Below are positions 37,705 through 51,015 of a stretch of 63,029 nucleotides of DNA, in pieces. The notes beneath the pieces were generated by a model, which was not told where the DNA came from, did no database searches, and saw only the letters and a list, made by a program, of their open reading frames with translations. The stretch is taken from contig JALUUO010000024.1 in NCBI GenBank assembly GCA_027021335.1, positions 1 through 63,029 on the forward strand. Direction: 5' to 3'. The translations under genes were made by a program, and so were the position numbers. The DNA comes from Nitrospirota bacterium. GTDB lineage: Bacteria; Nitrospirota; Thermodesulfovibrionia; SZUA-242. How positions within the stretch are numbered: the stretch's first letter is position 1; each line of letters starts with the position of its first letter.

Positions 37705-37718
37705 ATTTTAAAACGTTT
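37705..37718. promoter_or_regulatory. Second copy of the TTTTAAAACGTTT motif before tssA
   Basis: ATTTTAAAACGTTT occurs here and as part of the perfect palindrome at 37742-37773; the AACGTT centres are 43 bp apart, roughly four helical turns. The same ATTTTAAAACGT 12-mer is found at 46918-46929 upstream of the SNF2 gene. Consistent with two sites for one regulator on the same DNA face; inference only. Confidence 0.4.
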
Positions 37719-37741
37719 CGGCAATGCCTTTAAAATGCTTT

Positions 37742-37773
37742 TATATTATTTTAAAACGTTTTAAAATAATATA
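37742..37773. promoter_or_regulatory. 32-bp perfect palindrome in the divergent T6SS promoter region
   Basis: A perfect inverted repeat centred on AAAACGTTTT, made only of A and T outside the central CG, lies 49 bases before tssA in the 288-base spacer that separates the two T6SS operons. It is a strong candidate operator. TATAAT-like boxes at 37582-37587 and 37639-37644 lie elsewhere in the spacer; no gene was seen in it. Confidence 0.6.
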
Positions 37774-37821: not shown

Positions 37822-39399
37822 ATGATACCGGAAATACCCCCTTTACTTGGATCTCAACCAATAAGCCCGGAAACCCCTCAGGGAACATCCGTCCGTTACG
37901 AGCCGGAATACGAAGAACTTCAGGAGGAGGTCCGTAAACTTCAGTCACTATCAGGTGGCACTGTGGAGTGGAGCCGGGTGGCTGAATTGGCGGTAGTCAT
38001 CCTCGGCACTAAGTCGAAGGACTTGCAGGTGGCCTCATACCTGTGTGTTGCGCTTCTGCATGAACAGTCGCTGAAAGGCCTGGCCGCAGGTCTGTTAACC
38101 TGCAAGGATCTCATCAGCAACTACTGGGACACCATGTTTCCGGAGTTAAAACGCCTTAAAGGTAGGGTTTCTGCTATCGAGTGGTTGTCGGAAAATGCAG
38201 CTAAAACACTCGGCACACAAAAGTTCACCAGTAGCGACAAGCAACAACTAGAACAGATACAGGAGACGATAAAACAGGTAAGCGACCTGCTGCAGGAAAA
38301 AATTAAAGACCGTAATAATCTTCTCTCTGAACTCAGCAGGAAGGTTAAAGAAATAATAGAAGACCTGGGTTCGCAGAGTGTTGCCGAACAACCAAAGCCA
38401 AAACCCACGGCCCAACCGGCTGCTTCGTCACAAGCCCAGGCTCCTACTCAGATATCCTCTGAGGCGGATGCTCGTAAAGCGCTACGTGAAGCCCAAACTA
38501 TCGTCTTAAAGGCCGCAACTTATCTTCGCAAAGCAGATCTCAAAAATCCACTTCCATACCGTCTCAGCCGGTCAATGTTGTGGGACAGCATTCAAGCGCC
38601 GCCCCCAAATACGGATGGACGGACACAGATGCCTGCAATACCTGCATATACGATGGACGCACAAAAACAACTGCTCGAAAAAGGAGAACCCGAAGCAATT
38701 GTGGCTCAGTCTGAATCCACATTTACAAGCAGCCCTTTTTTGCTGGACCTCCAGCTCAACATGGACGAGGCCCTCTCAACACTTGGCACTCTTTACAAAG
38801 ATGTACAGACTGTCATCCGTGAAGAGCTGGGAGTGCTTCTTCGCCGGGTGCCTCAACTTCTTGACCTTCAATTCCAGGACGGTACGGCTTTTGCCGGTCC
38901 GGAAACCCAGGAATGGGTGAGAAAGACCGTGCTGACATCACAGGCAGCAGGTACAGGCGAAGACCTGCAAGCAGGTGGGCAGTCAGAAGAGGCCCGGGAA
39001 CTGGAGGAAACTTACAACAAGGCAAGACAACTGGCTCGTACAAAACAGATTAAAGAGGCTATTTCTCTTTTTCAAGACAAACTGGCCAGAACACCGGGAC
39101 GCCGGGAACGGTTCCTCTGGAATTTTCATCTTGCCAAAGTATTGATGGCTGGAGGAAAACAGAATCTTGCCCTTGCACAACTTGAATCCCTGGACCGTGA
39201 AATTGATTTTTTCTCCCTGGAGGAATGGGAACCTGAACTATGCCAGGAAGTGCTTAGCCAACTGGTAATTTGCCAGAAAAAAGTCGCACAAGAAACACGC
39301 CTGAACACGCCTGAACTCAGAGAAAAGCTGAACCGTCTTAATGCACGCCTACTCGAATTAAATCCCGTATCCGCTCTGACAATTGACGGAAAAGCATGA
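37822..39399 (+). CDS. tssA: T6SS cap/tip protein TssA (VasJ type)
   Basis: A 525-residue protein. The N-terminal ImpA domain (about residues 40-150) shows EWSRVAELAVVILGTKSKDLQVASYLCVALL and GLLTCKDLISNYWDTMFP, the TssA hallmark. A glutamine/proline/alanine-rich linker around residue 195-210 separates it from a long C-terminal VasJ-type helical domain with tetratricopeptide-like segments (ARQLARTKQIKEAISLFQD). TssA primes sheath assembly and may hold the distal end. It is first of the plus operon and has the palindrome upstream. Confidence 0.93.
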   Translation: MIPEIPPLLGSQPISPETPQGTSVRYEPEYEELQEEVRKLQSLSGGTVEWSRVAELAVVILGTKSKDLQVASYLCVALLHEQSLKGLAAGLLTCKDLISNYWDTMFPELKRLKGRVSAIEWLSENAAKTLGTQKFTSSDKQQLEQIQETIKQVSDLLQEKIKDRNNLLSELSRKVKEIIEDLGSQSVAEQPKPKPTAQPAASSQAQAPTQISSEADARKALREAQTIVLKAATYLRKADLKNPLPYRLSRSMLWDSIQAPPPNTDGRTQMPAIPAYTMDAQKQLLEKGEPEAIVAQSESTFTSSPFLLDLQLNMDEALSTLGTLYKDVQTVIREELGVLLRRVPQLLDLQFQDGTAFAGPETQEWVRKTVLTSQAAGTGEDLQAGGQSEEARELEETYNKARQLARTKQIKEAISLFQDKLARTPGRRERFLWNFHLAKVLMAGGKQNLALAQLESLDREIDFFSLEEWEPELCQEVLSQLVICQKKVAQETRLNTPELREKLNRLNARLLELNPVSALTIDGKA

Positions 39400-39458
39400 A
39401 ATTATACAGGATAGACTGAACCTGAAATTCCAAAAGAAGTTACGAAAGGAGTGATACT

Positions 39459-39965
39459 ATGGCAAAAGAGATCTCGGTAGCACCAAAAGAACGCATTAAT
39501 ATTACGTACAAGCCGGCCACAGGAGACGCCCAGGAAGAAAAAGAACTTCCCCTTAAATTGATGATGATAGGTGACTATACCTTACAAAATGATGATACCT
39601 TGCTGGAAGACCGAAAGCCTGTCAATGTGAGCAAAGACACATTCAACGACGTTATGAAAGGGCAAAAACTGAAACTGGATATAAAAGTGCCTGACCGCCT
39701 ATCAGGAGGAGAAGAAGAAAGTGAAATCGCCACAAGTTTAAAATTCGATACGCTGAACGATTTCAACCCCGAGTCTATTGTTAAGCAGGTTCCTGAACTT
39801 AACTCTCTGCTTGAACTTCGAAATGCGCTTACCGCTCTTAAAGGTCCTCTTGGAAACGTGCCCGACTTCAGAAAGAAAATTCAGGAGATGCTGAAAGACG
39901 ATGCTTCACGCCAAAAACTTCTGGACGAGTTAGGGTTAGGCAAGGAAGGGGAAAAGTCTGAATAG
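39459..39965 (+). CDS. tssB: T6SS sheath subunit TssB (VipA)
   Basis: The 168-residue TssB shows the conserved RINITYKPATGDAQEEKELPLKLMMIGDYTL opening and the NDFNPESIVKQVPELNSLLELRNALTALKGPLGN segment, which holds the sheath-forming handshake region. It polymerises with TssC to form the contractile sheath. The C-terminus carries the DDASRQKLLDELGL helix. The ATG at 39459 has AAAGGAG upstream. It is followed 74 bases later by tssC. Confidence 0.96.
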   Translation: MAKEISVAPKERINITYKPATGDAQEEKELPLKLMMIGDYTLQNDDTLLEDRKPVNVSKDTFNDVMKGQKLKLDIKVPDRLSGGEEESEIATSLKFDTLNDFNPESIVKQVPELNSLLELRNALTALKGPLGNVPDFRKKIQEMLKDDASRQKLLDELGLGKEGEKSE

Positions 39966-40039
39966 TTTTTTCCCGGCAGACAGTAAAATTAGAGCCGGAT
40001 TATAATTGAAAAACAGTTAAAAATTAGGAGGTTTTAGAT

Positions 40040-41527
40040 ATGGCAGAAGCCGAGACACAGCAGGAAGCTGCGACAGAAGTTCAGGAAAAGGCAACCGGTT
40101 CACTTCTGGACGAAATACTGGAAGTAACAAAACTTACCCCGGCGCAGGAAGGCTACGATCTCGCCAAGAAAGGAGTGGAAGCATTTATTGCCGAGCTTCT
40201 GGCGCCAGGGCGTGAAGGAGAAAAAGTCCATCAGTCGGTGGTGAATCAGATGATCGCCGAGGTGGATAATAAGCTAAGTGCCCAGGTGGACGAAGTGCTG
40301 CATCATCCGGATGTACAGAAACTGGAGTCTGCATGGCGGGGTCTGAAGATGCTTGTGGATAGAACCAATTTCAGAGAAAACATAAAGCTGGAACTGCTGA
40401 GTGTTTCAAAAGAAGATCTTCAGGAAGATTTTGAGGACGCCCCGGAAGTAACACAATCCGGCCTTTACAAACACCTTTATACCGCAGAGTACGGACAGTT
40501 CGGAGGCGAACCCTACGGAGCAGTTATTGCAAACTATGAATTTGGTCCCGGTCCACAGGATATGGCTCTTCTGCAGCAGGTGGCAAGCGTTGCCGCAATG
40601 GCCCACGCTCCATTTATAGCAGCAGCCAGTCCCAAATTTTTCGGAGTGGAAAGCTATACAGAACTGCCTAACCTGAAGGATTTACAGTCGGTGTTTGAAG
40701 GGCCTCAGTATATCAAATGGCATTCCTTCCGTGAGTCGGAAGACGCACGATATGTCTCTTTAACAACTCCACGTTTTCTTCTTCGCCTTCCCTACGGTAA
40801 AGAAACCAATCCGGTAAAGGCATTTGAGTACGAAGAAAAAGTAAGCGGTAACCACGAACACTACCTGTGGGGCAACACCGCTTTTGCTTTTGCTACGAGA
40901 CTGACAGATAGTTTCGCAAAGTATCGTTGGTGCGCCCAGATTATCGGTCCGCAAAGCGGCGGTGCTGTTGAAGACCTGCCACTCCATCAGTTCGAAGCCA
41001 TGGGCGAAATTCAGACCAAAATTCCTACGGAAGTTCTTATCTCCGAACGCCGGGAATTCGAACTGGCAGAACAAGGCTTTATAGGCCTAACCATGAGAAA
41101 GGGAAGCGATAACGCAACCTTCTTTTCCGCAAACTCATGTCAAAAGCCCAAATTCTTCGGCACCAGTAAAGAAGGCAAAGCGGCCGAAACAAATTTCAAA
41201 CTCGGAACACAGTTACCGTACATGTTTATTATCAACAGGCTGGCTCATTACCTGAAAGTACTTCAAAGAGAGCAGATCGGAAGCTGGAAGGAACGAGTGG
41301 ACCTTGAAAGAGAACTCAACACCTGGATACGCCAATATGTGGCAAACCAGGAAAATCCACCTGCATCCGTAAGGTCGAGGCGGCCACTTCGAGATGCCCA
41401 GGTGGTGGTTGAAGATGTAGAAGGCGATCCAGGCTGGTACAAGGTCACACTGCATGTCCGCCCTCACTTTAAATACCAGGGCGCATACTTCGACCTCTCG
41501 CTGGTAGGCAAGCTTGATAAGACGTAA
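40040..41527 (+). CDS. tssC: T6SS sheath subunit TssC (VipB)
   Basis: A 495-residue sheath protein. Near the N-terminus SLLDEILEVTKLTPAQEGYD retains the helix that ClpV recognises in VipB-type proteins, which implies that a ClpV unfoldase exists elsewhere. The body shows LHHPDVQKLESAWRGLKMLVDR, DMALLQQVASVAAMAHAPFIAAASP, LRLPYG and NTWIRQYVANQENPPASVR with EGDPGWY. Length fits the family. TTAGGAGG precedes the ATG. The gene that normally follows, hcp, is replaced by a short inverted-repeat element and then tssE. Confidence 0.96.
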   Translation: MAEAETQQEAATEVQEKATGSLLDEILEVTKLTPAQEGYDLAKKGVEAFIAELLAPGREGEKVHQSVVNQMIAEVDNKLSAQVDEVLHHPDVQKLESAWRGLKMLVDRTNFRENIKLELLSVSKEDLQEDFEDAPEVTQSGLYKHLYTAEYGQFGGEPYGAVIANYEFGPGPQDMALLQQVASVAAMAHAPFIAAASPKFFGVESYTELPNLKDLQSVFEGPQYIKWHSFRESEDARYVSLTTPRFLLRLPYGKETNPVKAFEYEEKVSGNHEHYLWGNTAFAFATRLTDSFAKYRWCAQIIGPQSGGAVEDLPLHQFEAMGEIQTKIPTEVLISERREFELAEQGFIGLTMRKGSDNATFFSANSCQKPKFFGTSKEGKAAETNFKLGTQLPYMFIINRLAHYLKVLQREQIGSWKERVDLERELNTWIRQYVANQENPPASVRSRRPLRDAQVVVEDVEGDPGWYKVTLHVRPHFKYQGAYFDLSLVGKLDKT

Positions 41528-41541
41528 AAACAACAAAAAGG

Positions 41542-41623
41542 AGCAGTCGTCAGAAGTCAAGGAGCAAGAGAAGCTATTAATTATTTTAAAATTGATCCAT
41601 AATCCTGCTCCCTGACAACTGCT
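41542..41623. repeat. Dispersed inverted-repeat element, copy 2 (tssC-tssE spacer)
   Basis: AGCAGTCGTCAG (41542-41553) pairs with CTGACAACTGCT (41612-41623) with a single G-U-tolerated mismatch; an inner GGAGCA/TGCTCC pair strengthens the fold. GATCCATA (41594-41601) occurs just inside the right arm, as in the other two copies. It fills the usual position of hcp. Confidence 0.65.
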
Positions 41624-41636
41624 GGCTTGATAAACC

Positions 41637-42053
41637 ATGAGCCGGGAACGCACACTACTGGAACGCATAAGTGATCCGCGGGAGGATGAGCCCAGAACGA
41701 TCGAAGAAAACACCAACATGCTCGCAAACTCCGTGCTGAAACATCTTCAAAAGATGCTTAACACGCGGCAGGGATTTTCAGAAACTCTTCCTGACTACGG
41801 TCTTCCCGACCTCGTGGACTTGTTTCATTCCTTTCCAACCGCGATCGGAATCATGGAGAAGGCAATAAAGGGCACCATCGAAAAGTATGAGCCCAGGCTT
41901 AGAAACGTCAGGGTACAGCCGGTAGAGTCAGAAAGAGAGATTCTGACTTTGCATTTCGAAATTAAGGCCGATCTGGTCACATCACGGGAGCGAGCCGGAG
42001 TACTATTCGAGACACAGGTGGATTCAAACGGAGAGGTTTCAGTATCGTTATAA
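41637..42053 (+). CDS. tssE: T6SS baseplate subunit TssE (gp25-like)
   Basis: A 138-residue gp25/lysozyme-like baseplate protein. The opening RTLLERISDP is conserved in TssE, and HLQKMLNTRQGFSETLPDYGLPDL is the family core, with the later EPRLRNVRVQPVESEREIL. TssE nucleates sheath assembly at the baseplate. Length is normal (about 135-150). The gene sits between two copies of the inverted-repeat element, an odd arrangement for a T6SS operon. Confidence 0.93.
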   Translation: MSRERTLLERISDPREDEPRTIEENTNMLANSVLKHLQKMLNTRQGFSETLPDYGLPDLVDLFHSFPTAIGIMEKAIKGTIEKYEPRLRNVRVQPVESEREILTLHFEIKADLVTSRERAGVLFETQVDSNGEVSVSL

Positions 42054-42061
42054 ATAAACTA

Positions 42062-42170
42062 CAGGAGTCAGGGAACAGGAAAATATGAATTATTCGTATC
42101 ATCTGCCGACCTTACAACCATCATCTGGACTTTGATCCATATTTCTGTACCCTGCACCCTGACAACTGCC
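42062..42170. repeat. Dispersed inverted-repeat element, copy 3 (tssE-tssF spacer)
   Basis: GATCCATATTTCTG (42134-42147) and CCCTGACAACTGCC (42157-42170) repeat the right end of copies 1 and 2. On the left, GGGAACAG followed by ATATG (from 42071) is an imperfect complement of CATATTTCTGTACCC, with one bulge and a mismatch; the outer arm is shortened. It is the most degenerate copy. Confidence 0.55.
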
Positions 42171-42183
42171 AACTTATTCAAAT

Positions 42184-43941
42184 ATGTTCAACAAATACTA
42201 TCTGGAAGAACTGACCTTTCTTCGCGAGCTGGGAAAAGAGTTCGCTGAAGCGCATCCTGAGGCCGCCCATTATCTGGCGGCAAAGGGAAGCGATCCCGAG
42301 GTTGACCGCCTGCTGGAGGGCTTTGCTTTTCTTACCGGCCGCATACGGCACAAACTGGATGACGAGCTGCCTGAGCTGACCCATATGATGATAGGGCTTT
42401 TATGGCCGCATTATCTTCGTCCCATACCGGCCATGAGCATCCTACAGTGCAAGCCGAAAGAGCACCTTTTGTCTGATCATCAGATAATTCCACGAGGAAC
42501 AGAAATCGCATCGGTTGCGGTAGAGGGAGTTCAGTGCCGGTTTCGTACCTGCTACGATGTTGATCTCTACCCACTCTCCCTAAGAGAAGTTTTAATGGAA
42601 AGTCCTTCCGGAAAAAAATCTCAACTCAGATTGACCTGTGAACCTCACCAGGGAGTTCAGCTGAGAAACTTTAAGATCGAGCGATTGCGTTTCTACCTGC
42701 ATGGTGAAAGCAATGTCACATCCGCGCTTTTTCTTTGGCTTTCCCGTCGTATCAAAAAAATTTCCATACGTTCGACCTCAGGAGCCGGAGCACCGATATC
42801 TTTACCGCCGGATATGCTTTGTCAGGCAGGCTTTGCAGACAACGAGGTATTACTGCCCTACCCCCTTCATTCATTCAAGGGCTACCGGTTCTTACAGGAA
42901 TATTTCTGTCTTCCCGAAAAATTTATGTTCTTTGATCTTTATGGACTAGAAAAGCTTCACGAAGCCGGTATAGAGGGGACGTTTGAAGTTCTATTTGAAT
43001 TCGATAAGCGCTGGGATGATGCACTTAGGATATCTGATGAGAATCTTCTTCTTTATTGTTCTCCTGTTATCAATCTTTTCCAACATGAAGCAGATCCCAT
43101 CCGTATAGAACAGGAAAGAACCTCGTATCGTATACATCCTCACGGCTCAGATATAAAGCACTTCGAAATATTCTCGGTTGACCGTGTAACCGGCTGGGAT
43201 CAATACGCGGCACGTGAACGAGTCTATGAACCTTTCTATTCCTTTAAGCATGGACAGAAATCACTGGGCCGCGGCAACGTATACCACAACACCAGCATGC
43301 AACACGTAGTGGTTGGACATGGAACAGATACATATATTTCATTTGTTAACGAAGAGGGAGATAGGGAAGCGCCGTCTGCCGAAGTTGTAAACATAGAACT
43401 CACATGCTCTAACCGTAACCTTCCTTCTGAACTTCGCGTAGGTGATATTCGCATTCCCACAGACAAGTCACCTGAATATGTGGAATTCCGGAATGTTTTA
43501 CCGGTAAGAAATTCCGTGCCCCCCCCTTTGGAGGGAGATCTTCATTGGCGCTTGATTTCACACCTGTCTTTAAACTATCAAAGCCTCACAAACCCGGATT
43601 CGCTACGAAGAGTGCTTGGTGTATACAACTTTCAAGCTCTTTATGACAGCCAGGCCGCACGCCAAAGCGAACTGCTTCTTGATGGTATCGTAAATGTTCA
43701 TGCAGAACCTGATGAACACATATTTAGAGGGGCTGTGATTCGGGGGACATATATTCATCTCGAACTGCTTGAGGATCATTTCGCCGGCGAGGGAGAAATG
43801 CTGTTGTTTGCATCGGTGCTTAATGAGTTCTTCGCGCTATATTCGAGCATAAACTCATTTTGCAGGCTTGAAGTACGTGGAGTTCAAAAAGGAGAGACTT
43901 ACGATTGGCCGCCCAGAATAGGACAGCAGATAATACTCTAA
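42184..43941 (+). CDS. tssF: T6SS baseplate subunit TssF
   Basis: A 585-residue TssF recognised by the opening FNKYYLEELTFLRELGKEFA, then HPEAAHYLAAKGSDPEVDRLLEGFAFL, and HLRPIPAMSIL-type and LTCSNRNLPSEL segments. With TssG, TssK and TssE it forms the wedge of the baseplate. Length is typical (580-600). The tssG start codon overlaps its end by 37 bases, so the two are translationally coupled. Confidence 0.95.
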   Translation: MFNKYYLEELTFLRELGKEFAEAHPEAAHYLAAKGSDPEVDRLLEGFAFLTGRIRHKLDDELPELTHMMIGLLWPHYLRPIPAMSILQCKPKEHLLSDHQIIPRGTEIASVAVEGVQCRFRTCYDVDLYPLSLREVLMESPSGKKSQLRLTCEPHQGVQLRNFKIERLRFYLHGESNVTSALFLWLSRRIKKISIRSTSGAGAPISLPPDMLCQAGFADNEVLLPYPLHSFKGYRFLQEYFCLPEKFMFFDLYGLEKLHEAGIEGTFEVLFEFDKRWDDALRISDENLLLYCSPVINLFQHEADPIRIEQERTSYRIHPHGSDIKHFEIFSVDRVTGWDQYAARERVYEPFYSFKHGQKSLGRGNVYHNTSMQHVVVGHGTDTYISFVNEEGDREAPSAEVVNIELTCSNRNLPSELRVGDIRIPTDKSPEYVEFRNVLPVRNSVPPPLEGDLHWRLISHLSLNYQSLTNPDSLRRVLGVYNFQALYDSQAARQSELLLDGIVNVHAEPDEHIFRGAVIRGTYIHLELLEDHFAGEGEMLLFASVLNEFFALYSSINSFCRLEVRGVQKGETYDWPPRIGQQIIL

Positions 43942-44939
43942 TCGACAACCTGTTAAAAAAGTGGCATAGATTCTCATTTTTCCAGGCCGTACAACTTCTT
44001 GAACGTGCTGTTCCGGAAGCCGCTCAAGTCGGCCACGGAGGAAGACCGGAGAAAGAGATAATCCGCTTCAGGCCGGATGCATCTTTGGCGTTTCCTGACT
44101 CGGACATCGTAAGCATCGAAGAGCTGCCGACAAGCAGCGGTGGTAAGCGATACAGAATCACCATCTCGTTTCTTGGCCTTTACGGTTCATCTTCACCTAT
44201 GCCGACTTATTTCACTGAAGACATCCTCTGGGAGGAGGGTTACGCCACCAGGGTACGTGACTTTCTCGATATCTTTCATCACCGGTTGATATCACTTTTT
44301 TACCGCACTTGGTCTAAATACCGATACTATATTCAATTCAGAAAAGGAGGATCTGACCCGCTATCCAAACGCCTGATCTGGTTTATCGGTCAACTAAACG
44401 AAGAAACACATCCTGAGGAGGGAAAAGAGGGGAGAAAAGAAAAAATAATTTCTCCGGTTCGCTTCCTGAAATATGCTGGCGCCATGACACAGCAGCCTCG
44501 TTCCGCAAGTCTTCTTGAAGGAATTCTAACGGATTATCTTGAAGGAATTCCGGTCAAGATCAAGCAGTGCATAGAGCGCCGTGCCGTAATAAGTAAAAGG
44601 CAGCGAAATGCTCTGGCTGAAAAAAATTGCACCCTTGGCAACAACTTTACAATAGGTGCTACCCTGCCGGACCGAAGCGGCAAGTTTCGGATCGTAATAG
44701 GTCCGATCAAGTATGATAAGCTTGGAGGTTTTCTTCCAGGCAACCACGACTACCGTTCGGTTAGTGAAATCCTTGATGCTTACCTGGTGGACGGACTGGA
44801 CTACGATATGGAAGTCAAGATTCAGGCACAAAATATACCAGGCGTAAAACTTTCGGAATCAGACGCATCAGGGCTTGGACGAAACACCTGGCTTTCAACA
44901 CCGCTTAGTGAAACGGAATCCGTGTTTTTAGAGTTTTAA
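43905..44939 (+). CDS. tssG: T6SS baseplate subunit TssG
   Basis: A 344-residue TssG. The beginning (RTADNTLIDNLLKKWHRFSFFQAVQLLER) and later FRPDASLAFPDSDIVSIE, PMPTYFTEDILWEE, RDFLDIFHHRLISLFYRTWSKYRY and the C-terminal GSGLGRNTWLSTP-like NTWLSTP are family signatures. It starts with TTG, with AAAAAGGAGAG ten bases upstream, and overlaps tssF. It ends the plus operon; no VgrG, PAAR or effector gene follows. Confidence 0.93.
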   Translation: MAAQNRTADNTLIDNLLKKWHRFSFFQAVQLLERAVPEAAQVGHGGRPEKEIIRFRPDASLAFPDSDIVSIEELPTSSGGKRYRITISFLGLYGSSSPMPTYFTEDILWEEGYATRVRDFLDIFHHRLISLFYRTWSKYRYYIQFRKGGSDPLSKRLIWFIGQLNEETHPEEGKEGRKEKIISPVRFLKYAGAMTQQPRSASLLEGILTDYLEGIPVKIKQCIERRAVISKRQRNALAEKNCTLGNNFTIGATLPDRSGKFRIVIGPIKYDKLGGFLPGNHDYRSVSEILDAYLVDGLDYDMEVKIQAQNIPGVKLSESDASGLGRNTWLSTPLSETESVFLEF

Positions 44940-45127: not shown

Positions 45128-45787
45128 TTATTGTGTTAGAAAAGATTCGATTATCGGAATGGCTTTTTCAAGAAAATCCTCTGCGTAGCTTATGGTTTCA
45201 TTTAGGTTGTCATTGGTGTCTGGAATTGAAACACGTATGAATGCAGCATCGCTCCGGTTATGCAGGATAGAGTTATAGATCATGCCAAGTTTCAGCATGT
45301 ATTGGTTAGTCAGCTTTTTACCCTGCATATCGTACCAATATAGGAATACTGTCTTGTCGCTATCCTTTTGATAAACAGCTTCCACAATTTTTTGAGGAGC
45401 TAGTTTTCCAAGCTGGACTGATCGAACTCGTTCCTCCAGTTGAAACCATCCTGAACCAGGCAGACAATGCTTGGGCGAATGAATCTGAGCTCCCTCGCGT
45501 TGAGTTCTGTAATAGCCGATATAAAGCAAAATAGAGCGGTCTTTATAAACATAGGACCTAAATATGTAATCATCCACTCTCAGGTTGTCCAAGGTCTCTT
45601 CATCAAAAAAATGGTCTTTTAGAGTCGTCCAGTTTCCCAGTTTGGCAGGAAACTCGGCAAGTGGTTTTTTGAGAGGAACAGCTTCTACATCTAAATAATA
45701 ATTAATATATATGCCTGTAATCACAAGCAGTATGCAGCAGACGTAAAATCGCCAGCTCGTCATTCTATTTTTGCTTTGCTCCATCAC
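45128..45787 (-). CDS. epsI: EpsI-family exosortase-associated protein
   Basis: A 219-residue periplasmic protein with one N-terminal membrane anchor (about residues 13-31, FYVCCILLVITGIYIN). The EpsI domain is recognised by FPAKLGNWT, LYIGYYRTQREGAQIHSPKHCLPGSGW and the VFLYWYDMQGKKLTNQYMLKLGM segment. EpsI partners exosortase in extracellular polysaccharide or PEP-CTERM systems. Its start overlaps the exosortase stop by four bases, so it is translationally coupled. The rest of an EPS gene cluster is not seen in this window. Confidence 0.85.
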   Translation of the reverse strand: MMEQSKNRMTSWRFYVCCILLVITGIYINYYLDVEAVPLKKPLAEFPAKLGNWTTLKDHFFDEETLDNLRVDDYIFRSYVYKDRSILLYIGYYRTQREGAQIHSPKHCLPGSGWFQLEERVRSVQLGKLAPQKIVEAVYQKDSDKTVFLYWYDMQGKKLTNQYMLKLGMIYNSILHNRSDAAFIRVSIPDTNDNLNETISYAEDFLEKAIPIIESFLTQ

Positions 45788-46653
45788 AAGTTGCTTTTGT
45801 CCTTGTCTTTTCTTTTACCGCCTATTTTACTTAAGACAACTCCAACTCCAATAAGCATTGCCATGGAAACAGCAAATATTACCATTCCGGCAAATTCGTG
45901 AAAAAAGCCTTCGGCGGCTTTTTCTCCGTATTGGTGTGCGAGAATTCCTGTGCCTATAACTCGTACGGCATTTGCCAACACAGCGATTGGGATGGTAGAG
46001 ATTACCAAGATAATCTTTTTCGTCAAGCTTTTTTGTGAAAAATATGCGTAGGCAACACCAAGTGCAAGAAGAGACATGAGCGATCTGATTCCACTACAGG
46101 CGTCGGCTACTTCTAATGTGATTGCAGGAAGCATAATAATGTTACCTTCGCGGTAGACGGAAATACCTATGGACTGAAGCACAATAACGGAGTATTTGGC
46201 AACAAAGAGTTTAAGTGGAAAAGCAATTGCATCATAAAGCATATAAGGCAGCGGAATCATAAAGTAAAGATAGCCGTAGGGAAGAAATGCATAACGGAAA
46301 AAACTCATGCCGAGATTGGAAATAATCAGTCCGGCCAGCACTACAAGCATGGAAATACGCATAGTGAAAAGCTCGGCTGCCAGGTAACCGAATACGTAAA
46401 TACATAACCCGGATATAAGAACAATAAGGCCCCAGTTAGAGGGCGAGATGGGTGTTTGGATAAGTGAATGCCTTTTTTGCCAAAGTAGGTAGAGGGCAAT
46501 TAATGGCACAAGGAAACCATGAGAGTAATTAGGATCATTCGACCAATCTCCAACCATTTTTAAAATGACTGAATAATAGAGGGACAGAAACAGGACGATA
46601 AGAATACATCCGGCAAATATGTGGCTTGATGAAACGCTATTGTGTTTGTCCAT
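45784..46653 (-). CDS. Exosortase
   Basis: A 289-residue multispan inner-membrane transpeptidase. The catalytic triad of exosortases is visible: Cys186 in VADACSGIRSL, Arg231 in NAVRVIGTGIL and His252 in FFHEFAGMVIF. About eight hydrophobic segments cover the length, with GFLVPLIALYLLW near the start. Exosortases recognise PEP-CTERM-type signals (PEP or VPLPA-like), transfer the protein and couple to EPS. I found no PEP-CTERM protein in the window, so the substrates must lie elsewhere. The subtype is not assigned. Overlaps epsI. Confidence 0.88.
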   Translation of the reverse strand: MDKHNSVSSSHIFAGCILIVLFLSLYYSVILKMVGDWSNDPNYSHGFLVPLIALYLLWQKRHSLIQTPISPSNWGLIVLISGLCIYVFGYLAAELFTMRISMLVVLAGLIISNLGMSFFRYAFLPYGYLYFMIPLPYMLYDAIAFPLKLFVAKYSVIVLQSIGISVYREGNIIMLPAITLEVADACSGIRSLMSLLALGVAYAYFSQKSLTKKIILVISTIPIAVLANAVRVIGTGILAHQYGEKAAEGFFHEFAGMVIFAVSMAMLIGVGVVLSKIGGKRKDKDKSNL

Positions 46654-46917: not shown

Positions 46918-46929
46918 ATTTTAAAACGT
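46918..46929. promoter_or_regulatory. ATTTTAAAACGT site upstream of SNF2 gene
   Basis: This 12-mer also occurs at both sites in the T6SS divergent promoter (37705 and 37748). It sits 172 bases before the SNF2 start in the 448-base spacer after the exosortase gene. A third match to an AT-rich word of this length is suggestive rather than conclusive. Confidence 0.3.
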
Positions 46930-46961: not shown

Positions 46962-46990
46962 TTTAAGATACCGGCAAATGGTATTTTAAA
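46962..46990. promoter_or_regulatory. 29-bp imperfect inverted repeat upstream of SNF2 gene
   Basis: TTTAAGATACC (46962-46972) and GGTATTTTAAA (46980-46990) are complementary at 10 of 11 positions with a 7-base spacer, and a further ATACC follows at 47000. It lies about 110 bases before the SNF2 start, a typical place for an operator. The rest of the spacer shows no gene. Confidence 0.45.
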
Positions 46991-47101: not shown

Positions 47102-49837
47102 TTGCAATATAAAAAATATGGAATGAACTACTACATTAGACTGACTCCTACAGGCCATCTTCGCCTGCTGGAGGGCGACGACAATGCCGGGACAACACCC
47201 GATGCCTGGATGAAGAAAGTTGCGGCCGCATTTTCGTCATCCCAGGCTGAAGGGCTTTTTACACTTGCCGCCACAAGGCCGGATACACCGCCGCCATCGT
47301 CGCTTTCATTCTGGCGGGATTTCGCCTGCCGCTACCTGACACAGCTCTGTCGTACACCCGAGTCTGCCGGAAAACAACTCAACCCGATTGAGCCGCCTTC
47401 TGATTCCGAACTGGCAACTATGCTGCTTTCGGCTCCTCCCATGCAGGGAGGAGAGTATCTTAGTTCCGAGGTTTTTCGCAGCCTTTGGCTGGACCTGGAC
47501 TCGTGGGCGCTTAAAGATATCGCCGCATCAAAGGACGGCCTGGTCGGATGGTTGAAGAAAAACGCAGCCTCCTGGCATCAGGTCGGACGCGTCTGCTTTC
47601 ACCTTGCAGAGAATAAGAGGGATCCCGAGCTGCCTTTCGCGTTTCTGGCCACCTATGCGCCAAGCCTTTCAAAGGGGGGGCAAGTACAGTACCGGCCGCT
47701 TGGCAAAGCCCTTCAGGAATATGCGGGAGCAAGAAATAAGAAAGAGCTTATCAACCTGCTTTTGCCAGTACATCGGGCATCTGAAAAAGTAGATTTTGTC
47801 AAGAAGATGGTTGATTCAGGCGATCTTTTTCATCCTCTGGCATGGAGTCCTGACGAAGCCTACCACCTGCTAAAGAACGTACCCCTTCTTGAGGAAAGCG
47901 GACTCCTGGTACGCCTTCCGGACTGGTGGCAAAAGCGCCCCCGTCCGCGCGTGGCCGTGACCATCGGCGGGAACAAACAGAGCAAGTTAGGTATAGATGC
48001 AATGCTGGACTTCAAGGTCGGTATTACCCTTGGAGACCAAAACCTGACTAAAGGCGAATGGCGTAAAATCATGGCCTCGCAAGACGGCTTGGCATACATC
48101 AAGGGGCAGTGGATTGAAGTAGACAGAAAAAAACTCTCAGAAGCTCTTGAGCACTGGAAACAGGTGGAAGCCGAAGCAGCCGGGGAAGGAATCTCATTTA
48201 TCGAAGGTATGCGTCTTCTGGCTGGAGCGCCGGCAAACTTAAGTCTTGATGGTTCGCCTGAAGAGGTGGAACATGATTGGGCTTTCATCAACGCCGGCAA
48301 ATGGCTTTCCAAAACTCTCTCGGACCTGCGCAATCCAGACGGATTGAAAAACTCCGGAGTGCACAGCAAGGAGTTTCACGGCAGACTCCGTCACTACCAG
48401 AAAACCGGGCATAACTGGCTCTGGATGCTGTCAAGCCTCGGACTCGGCGCCTGTCTTGCCGATGATATGGGACTTGGCAAAACAATTCAGATAATATCTC
48501 TTCTGCTGACTCTTAAAGAGGCAAATAAAAAGAAATCGTCAGTTGTCAAGCCATCGCTTCTTGTGCTTCCGGCATCACTACTGGCTAACTGGAAGGCAGA
48601 GATTAAACGCTTTGCTCCGACACTCAAAGCATCTTTCATTCATCCCTCGGAAACGGAAAAAACAGTTCTTACCTCCATGGCCGGGAAGGCCGGCGATGCT
48701 TTTGCAAAAACCGATGTCGTCTTTACCACCTACGGAATGCTGTTTAGACAAAAATGGCTGCTCGATATCAAATGGCGGCTGGTCATCCTGGATGAAGCCC
48801 AGGCCATTAAAAACCCTTCTACACGCCAAACTAAAACCGTCAAACAGCTTAAGGCTGATGCCAGAATCGCACTTACCGGCACTCCGGTAGAAAACCGGCT
48901 TTCCGATCTCTGGTCGCTCTTTGATTTTCTCTGCCCGGGCCTGCTTGGTTCGGCAACCAGGTTTAAAAAATTCGTCAAGGCCCTGGAGGCCAGAGAACAT
49001 GACAGCTACGCACCTCTTAGAAACCTGGTCGGGCCTTATGTTTTAAGACGACTTAAGACCGACAAGAGCATTATCGCTGACCTGCCTGATAAAACCGAGA
49101 TGAAGGCGTTCTGCGGCCTGGCGAAAAAACAGGCTGCAATGTACGCCAAATCTGTGCAGGAACTTGCAGCATCTCTCGAACAACTTGATGGGATTAAACG
49201 ACGAGGGATTGTACTGGCCTACCTTATGAGATTCAAACAGATATGTAATCATCCAAGCCAGTTTCTGGGAGACGGCCAATACAAGCCGGTAGACAGCGGC
49301 AAGTTCGATCGACTAAGAACAATCTGTGAGGAAATCATGTCACGGCAGGAAAAGACTCTTGTATTTACCCAGTTTCGTGAAATGACTGAGCCTATAGCCG
49401 CTTTTTTGGGAGAAGTCTTCGGCCGTGATGGTCTTGTGCTGCACGGTGGGACAGCAGTAAAAAAACGCAGAACTCTTATTGACATGTTTCAGAAGGAGGA
49501 TGGGCCGCCGTTTTTCGTGCTTTCCCTAAAGGCCGGCGGCACTGGTCTCAACCTCACAGCCGCGTCGCACGTGATTCACTTTGACCGCTGGTGGAATCCG
49601 GCCGTGGAAAACCAGGCTACAGACCGGGCCTTCCGCATAGGCCAGCACAGAAACGTGGTTGTACACAAGTTTATTTGCCGAGGTACAATTGAAGAGAAAA
49701 TCGATACACTGATCGAAGAGAAAAAAAACCTTGCCGACGATATCCTGAAGGCCGGGGCCGAATCCATGCTGACAGAGATGAGCAACGAGGAATTGCTCAA
49801 GGTAGTGGCCCTTGATATCGATCGGGCAGAATTATAA
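47102..49837 (+). CDS. SNF2-family DEAD-like helicase/ATPase
   Basis: A 911-residue SNF2-type double-stranded-DNA translocase. The first about 430 residues are a bacterial-type N-terminal domain (SNF2_assoc-like). Motif I DDMGLGKT lies near residue 454 (ACLADDMGLGKTIQIISLLL), motif II DEAQ near 563 (LVILDEAQAIKN), motif III GTPVENRL, and the C-terminal helicase lobe ends with RAFRIGQHRNVVVHKFICRGTIEEKI. Such proteins remodel or translocate DNA-protein complexes. The start may be TTG at 47102 or ATG at 47123. The next gene, 11 bases on, encodes a SWIM-finger protein, a frequent partner. Confidence 0.92.
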   Translation: MQYKKYGMNYYIRLTPTGHLRLLEGDDNAGTTPDAWMKKVAAAFSSSQAEGLFTLAATRPDTPPPSSLSFWRDFACRYLTQLCRTPESAGKQLNPIEPPSDSELATMLLSAPPMQGGEYLSSEVFRSLWLDLDSWALKDIAASKDGLVGWLKKNAASWHQVGRVCFHLAENKRDPELPFAFLATYAPSLSKGGQVQYRPLGKALQEYAGARNKKELINLLLPVHRASEKVDFVKKMVDSGDLFHPLAWSPDEAYHLLKNVPLLEESGLLVRLPDWWQKRPRPRVAVTIGGNKQSKLGIDAMLDFKVGITLGDQNLTKGEWRKIMASQDGLAYIKGQWIEVDRKKLSEALEHWKQVEAEAAGEGISFIEGMRLLAGAPANLSLDGSPEEVEHDWAFINAGKWLSKTLSDLRNPDGLKNSGVHSKEFHGRLRHYQKTGHNWLWMLSSLGLGACLADDMGLGKTIQIISLLLTLKEANKKKSSVVKPSLLVLPASLLANWKAEIKRFAPTLKASFIHPSETEKTVLTSMAGKAGDAFAKTDVVFTTYGMLFRQKWLLDIKWRLVILDEAQAIKNPSTRQTKTVKQLKADARIALTGTPVENRLSDLWSLFDFLCPGLLGSATRFKKFVKALEAREHDSYAPLRNLVGPYVLRRLKTDKSIIADLPDKTEMKAFCGLAKKQAAMYAKSVQELAASLEQLDGIKRRGIVLAYLMRFKQICNHPSQFLGDGQYKPVDSGKFDRLRTICEEIMSRQEKTLVFTQFREMTEPIAAFLGEVFGRDGLVLHGGTAVKKRRTLIDMFQKEDGPPFFVLSLKAGGTGLNLTAASHVIHFDRWWNPAVENQATDRAFRIGQHRNVVVHKFICRGTIEEKIDTLIEEKKNLADDILKAGAESMLTEMSNEELLKVVALDIDRAEL

Positions 49838-49848
49838 GGAGTCAGATA

Positions 49849-51015
49849 ATGAGTCGATACTACTACGGTTGGAGTCCATACGTTTCAGTGAGCGAGCGTC
49901 GTGCGCGTGCACGGAGAAAGATGGAGAAACTCAGAAAAAAAGGGATGGATATCAAGCCCGTGGAAATCGAGGGTAGAAAGATTGCACGAACGTTTTGGGG
50001 CAAGGCCTGGTGCAATCACCTGGAATCATTCAGCGACTACGAAAACAGGTTGCCGCGTGGCCGCACCTATGTCCGTAACGGTTCTGTATGCCATCTTGAC
50101 ATTGCCAAGGGCGAGGTCAACGCCATGGTCAGCGGCTCTGAAATCTATAAAGTTGAAATCTCTATCAAAACGCTTCCAAAAACTAAATGGAAAGGATTGA
50201 AGGACAGCTGCGCCGGGCGGATCGGTTCACTTCTGGAGCTGCTTCAGGGCAGAGTTTCCGACAGTGTGATGCAAGTTGTAACCGACCGTAACAAGGGGCT
50301 GTTTCCTCTGCCCGGAGAGATCAAACTTAATTGTAATTGCCCCGATTGGGCTGTTATGTGCAAGCATGTAGCGGCAGTACTCTACGGAGTGGGGGCACGG
50401 CTTGACCAAGAGCCGGAACTGCTGTTTCTTCTTCGGGGAGCAAATCATGAAGAGCTGATCAGCGCCGAGGCCGATGTGGCTGCTGCTTCCGTAAGAACAA
50501 AAGGCGGCCGCAAACGTATCGCGGACGATGCTATTACAGATGTGTTCGGCATCGAGATGTCGGAAGATATGACACCTGCTAAAACAAAACCCTCATCACG
50601 TCGTAAAAAAGCAGCGCCAAAGTCCAAAAAGGTTTCCAAAAAAACTTCGAAAAAAGTCTCGAAAAAAGTCTCGAAGGTTATAGCCAAAAGTAAAGTGAAA
50701 AGCAAAGTAAAAAGCAGCAAGAGTAAAACTGTGGTGACAAAAACCACCAAGCCTCAGAAAGCCAAACTAAAGGGAACGAAGCAATCCGCCCGAAGTGCCG
50801 GCACCGTTACCGGCAAGGCGGTTACCAGGCTGCGCGTGAAGTTTGGCATGTCGCAAAGCCAGCTTGCAAGGCTTCTGGGCGTGAGTGCGCCTACTATCGG
50901 AAACTGGGAAAAAAAGCCTGAGAGACTTGATCTTAAGCCCAGCTCACTAAGTGCTTGGAACATGGCAAAAAAAATGACGAAGCAGCAGGCCTGGCAAAAA
51001 CTGGATGAGTCATGA
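49849..51015 (+). CDS. SWIM zinc-finger protein with lysine-rich linker and XRE-like HTH
   Basis: A 388-residue protein. The first about 150 residues start YYYGWSPYVSVSERRARARRK; a SWIM zinc finger follows at about 162-174 (CNCPDWAVMCKH, the CxCxnCxH pattern). From about 240 to 315 comes a very lysine-rich, Ser/Ala/Val low-complexity segment with KKVSKK-type repeats, like histone H1 tails. The C-terminal about 60 residues fit a Cro/C1-like helix-turn-helix (FGMSQSQLARLLGVSAPTIGNWE). The combination should bind DNA by several parts. GGAG precedes the ATG and it is coupled to the SNF2 gene. Confidence 0.82.
   Translation: MSRYYYGWSPYVSVSERRARARRKMEKLRKKGMDIKPVEIEGRKIARTFWGKAWCNHLESFSDYENRLPRGRTYVRNGSVCHLDIAKGEVNAMVSGSEIYKVEISIKTLPKTKWKGLKDSCAGRIGSLLELLQGRVSDSVMQVVTDRNKGLFPLPGEIKLNCNCPDWAVMCKHVAAVLYGVGARLDQEPELLFLLRGANHEELISAEADVAAASVRTKGGRKRIADDAITDVFGIEMSEDMTPAKTKPSSRRKKAAPKSKKVSKKTSKKVSKKVSKVIAKSKVKSKVKSSKSKTVVTKTTKPQKAKLKGTKQSARSAGTVTGKAVTRLRVKFGMSQSQLARLLGVSAPTIGNWEKKPERLDLKPSSLSAWNMAKKMTKQQAWQKLDES

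Follow-up and report, generated by a model that had tools for sequence, protein, structure and literature searches.

A bacterial SNF2 ATPase gene paired with a gene for a SWIM-finger protein bearing an H1-like tail and a Cro/C1-type helix-turn-helix: a candidate two-subunit DNA motor

Introduction

A 63,029-nucleotide stretch of a Nitrospirota genome (contig JALUUO010000024.1; hereafter the window) carries a gene for an SNF2-family ATPase followed by a gene for a SWIM-finger protein, whose single chain continues into a disordered, lysine-rich tail and a Cro/C1-type helix-turn-helix (HTH). With slightly better than even confidence, we regard this pair as a two-subunit DNA motor in which the SWIM protein would be the DNA-holding subunit, its tail a tether and its HTH a second DNA contact. 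The original description of the SWIM domain already noted SNF2 neighbours, and ywqB encodes a SWIM protein. The SNF2-SWIM pair is already known; the form with a basic tail and a DNA-binding head constitutes an uncharacterised variant, and none of the papers listed in our literature searches deals with a SWIM/basic-tail/HTH fusion.

Results

The SNF2 motor gene

Both open reading frames lie where the initial annotation had placed them, at 47102-49837 (+) and 49849-51015 (+). The first opens at a TTG at 47102 and comprises 911 residues; its translation probably starts at ATG 47123 instead, yielding 904 amino acids, because the first residue of many orthologues corresponds to residue 8 of the window protein (Table 1). 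Pfam assigns to this frame an SNF2-rel_dom (223.6 bits), a DUF3670 (118.2) and a Helicase_C domain (72.3), each above its gathering cut-off, and ATPase motifs I, II, III, V and VI are all intact. These domains and motifs, together with the best solved relative of the motor, the SNF2/Rad54 protein of S. solfataricus (1z63, E 3.3e-127), place the protein in the SsoRad54 branch of SNF2 family ATPases. The predicted motor structure, obtained with fair confidence (mean pLDDT 82.6, pTM 0.60), aligns with 1z63 over 429 residues at Z 25.2; we infer that the rmsd of 21.0 arises because the lobes are placed differently. Structural matches listed for the model are remodeller and related SNF2 motors. The best named model, NCBIfam NF058637 (SCO1167/SCO6262 family helicase), matches from residue 215 with 565.2 bits against a curated cut-off of 1200, and membership in that family was rejected.

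Table 1. Features of the SNF2-SWIM operon and its upstream region (window coordinates)
Feature	Position	Strand	Basis
SNF2-family ATPase gene from its probable start (SsoRad54-like motor, N-terminal half with DUF3670)	47123..49837	+	Pfam, motifs, orthologue starts, solved relatives
Walker A GLGKT, residues 457-461 of the 911-residue frame	48470..48484	+	motif reading
SWIM protein gene, 388 aa	49849..51015	+	open reading frame, Pfam SWIM and HTH_3
Conserved N-terminal core of the SWIM protein, residues 1-234	49849..50550	+	homologue alignment, structure prediction
SWIM finger CxCPDWAVMCKH, residues 162-173	50332..50367	+	Pfam, alignment
Disordered lysine-rich, H1-like linker, residues 238-319 (27 K, 3 R, 1 D, 1 E)	50560..50805	+	composition, structure prediction
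Cro/C1-type HTH of the SWIM protein, residues 320-388	50806..51012	+	Pfam, predicted fold, homologues
Imperfect inverted repeat (arms 11, one mismatch, spacer 7), 5′ of the operon	46962..46990	.	chance level, not conserved

The SWIM protein

The SWIM gene starts 11 bp 3′ of the SNF2 gene, and a Shine-Dalgarno-like AAGGAG, located directly after or overlapping the SNF2 stop codon, suggests translational coupling of the two genes. The Pfam SWIM match barely exceeds its cut-off (20.2 versus 19.6 bits); the assignment is carried further by the finger itself, in which all residues except 163, and hence its cysteines and histidine, are invariant among 47 HTH-bearing homologues. Structure prediction, for which an alignment of 47 of the 50 HTH-bearing proteins (window included) was used, yielded a confidently predicted core, a stretch mostly below pLDDT 50 at residues 235-316, indicating disorder, and five helices at residues 321-388 with pLDDT about 95-98. 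The pTM of 0.55 is as expected for two domains on a flexible linker. ZSWIM8, considered as a fold relative of the core, gave a match too weak to use (Z 6.0, rmsd 5.0, 100 aligned). The C-terminal domain belongs to the Cro/C1 (XRE) class by its HTH_3 match (31.8 bits, cut-off 23) and its lambda-repressor-like predicted fold, its nearest solved folds being HigA2 (Z 9.3, rmsd 2.5, 71 aligned) and MqsA (Z 7.6, rmsd 2.3, 63 aligned). The arrangement read initially, with SWIM finger, basic linker and Cro/C1-type HTH in one chain, is therefore upheld by Pfam and by two confidently folded ends, and the HTH has passed the structural check proposed for it. Scaffold positions 329, 340, 345, 353 and 354 of the HTH do not vary among homologues. 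Positions 347, 348, 351 and 352 of the recognition helix, which we take to face DNA as is usual in this fold, do vary, which argues against one target site common to all homologues in the sequence-specific recruitment that the initial annotation considered possible.

The linker qualifies as histone H1-like by its long lysine-rich disordered stretch (27 K of 82 residues). Among the 50 HTH-bearing proteins it measures 16-113 residues. A net charge of +0.10 or more per residue was found for 46 of these linkers; the other four are short or acidic with a charge of zero or below, and two of them, both from Kiritimatiellota, are frankly acidic. The basic character is thus usual, the sequence is not conserved and the linker is dispensable. 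The initial annotation had named poor conservation of the linker as a point against its reading; as basic, disordered character is kept in 46 of 50 proteins but sequence and length are not, that objection holds by half.

Distribution and inheritance of tails and heads

A scan of genome contigs returned 163 SWIM relatives, the best 80 of which were read; adding the window and three loci found in an initial genome search gives a set of 84 SWIM proteins. Three loci matched through their HTH alone (L005-L007) proved to encode short HTH proteins and were excluded before counting; these sit beside a gene some 105 residues long, an arrangement that by eye resembles a toxin-antitoxin pair. To class the tails, we used an HTH profile derived from clear cases together with lysine and arginine content, and four were assigned by eye. 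Fifty proteins end in a Cro/C1-type HTH, 21 in a basic tail only, three in a winged-helix-like domain (L002, L068, L080) and one in a transposase-type HTH (L070), while six have none of these and three are cut by contig ends. Pfam supports the calls for L080 (MarR_2 42.1 bits, cut-off 27) and L070 (HTH_Tnp_1 31.7 bits, cut-off 24.1); the winged-helix calls for L068 (25.9 versus 27) and L002 (16.4 versus 22) lie below the Pfam cut-offs. Since the same tail occurs elsewhere without an HTH or with another DNA-binding end, the HTH head appears to be exchangeable equipment outside the core mechanism. Neither tail nor HTH is indispensable, because four of the 50 HTH-bearing proteins have no basic linker and six of the 84 have, by our classing rule, neither part.

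A search for the same fusion in other phyla, as initially suggested, was successful: the 49 HTH-bearing loci besides the window derive from ten named phyla, Glassbacteria and further genomes. On the core tree, the inner branches of which are often weak, the HTH label requires 8 changes versus 26.6 in shuffles, and the HTH is therefore largely inherited. In the phylum of the window, a match at E 1e-20 or better is present in 29 of 245 genomes; among the 20 loci read there, two bear the HTH (the window and G195), and in the others the tail is of a different, mostly basic, kind or the protein is incomplete at a contig end or short. Decayed HTH sequences were not found 3′ of 27 complete proteins without a Cro/C1-type HTH, a few of which have less than 200 bp downstream; three more proteins were truncated by contig ends. 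No HTH-bearing copy was seen on plasmids, where 113 records match the SWIM core, none covering 80% of the query, and a single phage record, Wolbachia phage WO, matches the core. The genome of locus L073 encodes a second SWIM/HTH protein (L118, 862-2199), which is divergent and has a linker poor in lysine.

When 29 of the 50 HTH sequences served as queries, 25 genomes yielded fusions as well as stand-alone proteins. Four of the latter (L117, L119, L120, L121; open frames of 171-274 residues, coiled-coil-like start by eye) share HTH subfamily and basic stretches with the window SWIM protein but have no SWIM core; a search for a known function of these four returned none. Such stand-alone proteins are a plausible source of the SWIM-fused HTH. 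The GC3 of the pair, about 0.54-0.57 against 0.41-0.48 in its nearest neighbours, hints only weakly at a foreign origin.

The pair as a unit

In all 82 readable pairs the SNF2 gene lies 5′ of the SWIM gene on the same strand, with a gap of at most 60 bp in 61 of them, so that adjacency and co-orientation are kept across lineages. Five genomes of the window's phylum (G219, G211, G115, G153 and G114, the last cut by its contig) encode single-chain proteins in which a SWIM core precedes an SNF2 motor; such a protein is also found in Wolbachia phage WO, and phage family phrog_29996 matches both window proteins. Distances of SWIM core, SNF2 and HTH correlate (r 0.73-0.76, 44 rows), which we read as co-inheritance rather than contact. 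Conserved order, correlated distances, single chains and phrog_29996 taken together make a physical SNF2-SWIM complex likely. Sequence or prediction shows the pair and its conserved order, how the domains are arranged, that the tail is disordered, that the parts are inherited together and that single chains exist. A further SNF2 gene stands near the pair at locus L069 (7172-10003); the chain it encodes also shows a SWIM match, which at 17.7 bits is weak and falls short of the 19.6-bit cut-off.

Surroundings of the operon

The pair is flanked in the window by T6SS, exosortase and G6PD genes. Directly 5′ of the operon, on the minus strand, an exosortase EpsH-like gene is followed by a DUF3485 gene (45128-46653), and T6SS genes (ImpA/VasJ-like, VipA, VipB, TssF, TssG) occupy 37822-44939. 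Three exact copies of the word ATTTTAAAACGT are situated between a PP2C-type phosphatase gene and the T6SS cluster (37705-37773), two of them head to head in a 32-bp AT-rich palindrome recognised by eye (37742-37773).

Discussion

Alternative explanations

The HTH could serve autoregulation, the SWIM protein repressing or tuning its own operon via an upstream operator and the HTH taking no part in motor action. Its fold is of the antitoxin/repressor class, it is encoded in the last gene of the operon, and the upstream region holds an imperfect inverted repeat, initially described as operator-like, as well as a copy of ATTTTAAAACGT at 46918. The repeat does exist, but it is at chance level: when the intergenic stretch was resampled 200 times with a Markov model, 14 copies reached arms of at least 11. 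Nor is it conserved: in the 300 bp 5′ of 40 HTH-bearing operons, including 13 close to that of the window, no common word of 8-10 bases and no exact palindromic 5-mer exceeded 20 shuffles in a test restricted to exact words and exact 5-mer palindromes. The word ATTTTAAAACGT, also pointed out initially, is real and rare (five exact copies in the 2.7-Mb genome, none of the reversed control), but it is not specific to the SNF2-SWIM operon: four of the five copies lie in the window, one 5′ of the SNF2 gene and three at 37705-37767 in the T6SS intergenic region. We consider autoregulation distinctly unlikely.

A role in defence against phages or plasmids, with the HTH detecting or silencing foreign DNA, is suggested by the patchy distribution within the phylum (29 of 245 genomes), by the relatedness of the SNF2 motor to the ZorD and DpdE helicases and by a PADLOC hit between the SWIM core and PDC-S62, which is short and scores 25.1 bits; according to PMC5512222, moreover, SNF2 ATPases associated with SWIM proteins are widespread in mobile systems. 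The motor scores 296.6 bits with the Zorya ZorD model, below its curated cut-off of 1500. No neighbour recurs beyond the pair, the commonest neighbour family being found in four loci, and the near flanks of the window pair contain no defence gene among ten proteins scanned. In a crude PADLOC test of 145 of 244 neighbours and 127 of 132 control genes, the commonest model was found in 3/145 versus 2/127; 62 models were matched among neighbours versus 23 among controls, models rather than distinct hit proteins being counted and many representing one methyltransferase and its relatives. The defence module proposed in the initial annotation thus received no positive support, and we hold it to be very improbable. 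An RNA-polymerase-linked factor is a further, unlikely candidate: like RapA or B. subtilis YwqA, the motor would free or backtrack stalled polymerase while the SWIM subunit holds the template. The Swi2/Snf2 relatives RapA and YwqA are reported to act on RNA polymerase (PMC8501970, PMC7385302). RapA identity was rejected, since the NCBIfam RapA model aligns in pieces only, with 50.2 bits versus a cut-off of 576. This reading overlaps with that of a DNA motor, the difference being the target.

A proposed two-subunit DNA motor

For the DNA motor that we prefer, we infer complex formation, DNA binding, sequence specificity, translocation and an anchoring role of the pair. The SNF2 subunit would be a double-stranded DNA translocase of the SsoRad54 (SSO1653) kind, whose ATP-driven movement along the duplex may remove or displace bound proteins; candidate targets are nucleoid proteins, RNA polymerase and recombination intermediates. 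The SWIM core with its finger would dock on this motor. The disordered lysine-rich tail could then hold the motor on DNA as a non-specific electrostatic tether that is able to slide, and the Cro/C1-type HTH might provide a second DNA contact, serving as an additional anchor or as a guide and biasing the place of loading.

Two known systems invite comparison. The SNF2-SWIM system named in PMC5512222 and the window pair share an SsoRad54-branch motor adjoining a SWIM-finger protein, in kept order and with single-chain forms too, whereas the window SWIM protein adds the basic disordered tail and the Cro/C1 HTH. In the actinobacterial topoisomerase I, H1-like lysine repeats stabilise TopA on DNA and confer processivity, according to PMC7398561. 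Both cases would involve a DNA enzyme held by an H1-like lysine-rich tail, a functional analogy for which no homology is claimed; in topoisomerase I the tail resides on the enzyme itself, whereas in the window pair it resides on the partner subunit and is followed by the HTH.

A broader and more doubtful reading, which we put forward tentatively, is that of a bacterial counterpart of subunit-guided chromatin remodelling, in which lineages would retarget one SNF2 motor by swapping heads on an H1-like tether, the heads being a Cro/C1-type HTH in most and a winged-helix or transposase-type HTH in others. If tail and head do hold and aim the motor, the pair would represent a simple two-gene bacterial analogue of the tethering and targeting of eukaryotic remodellers, and the roles of tail and head could be tested directly in the natural variants that have or lack each of them. 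The analysis offers a structural reading for a widespread and little-studied SNF2-SWIM gene pair.
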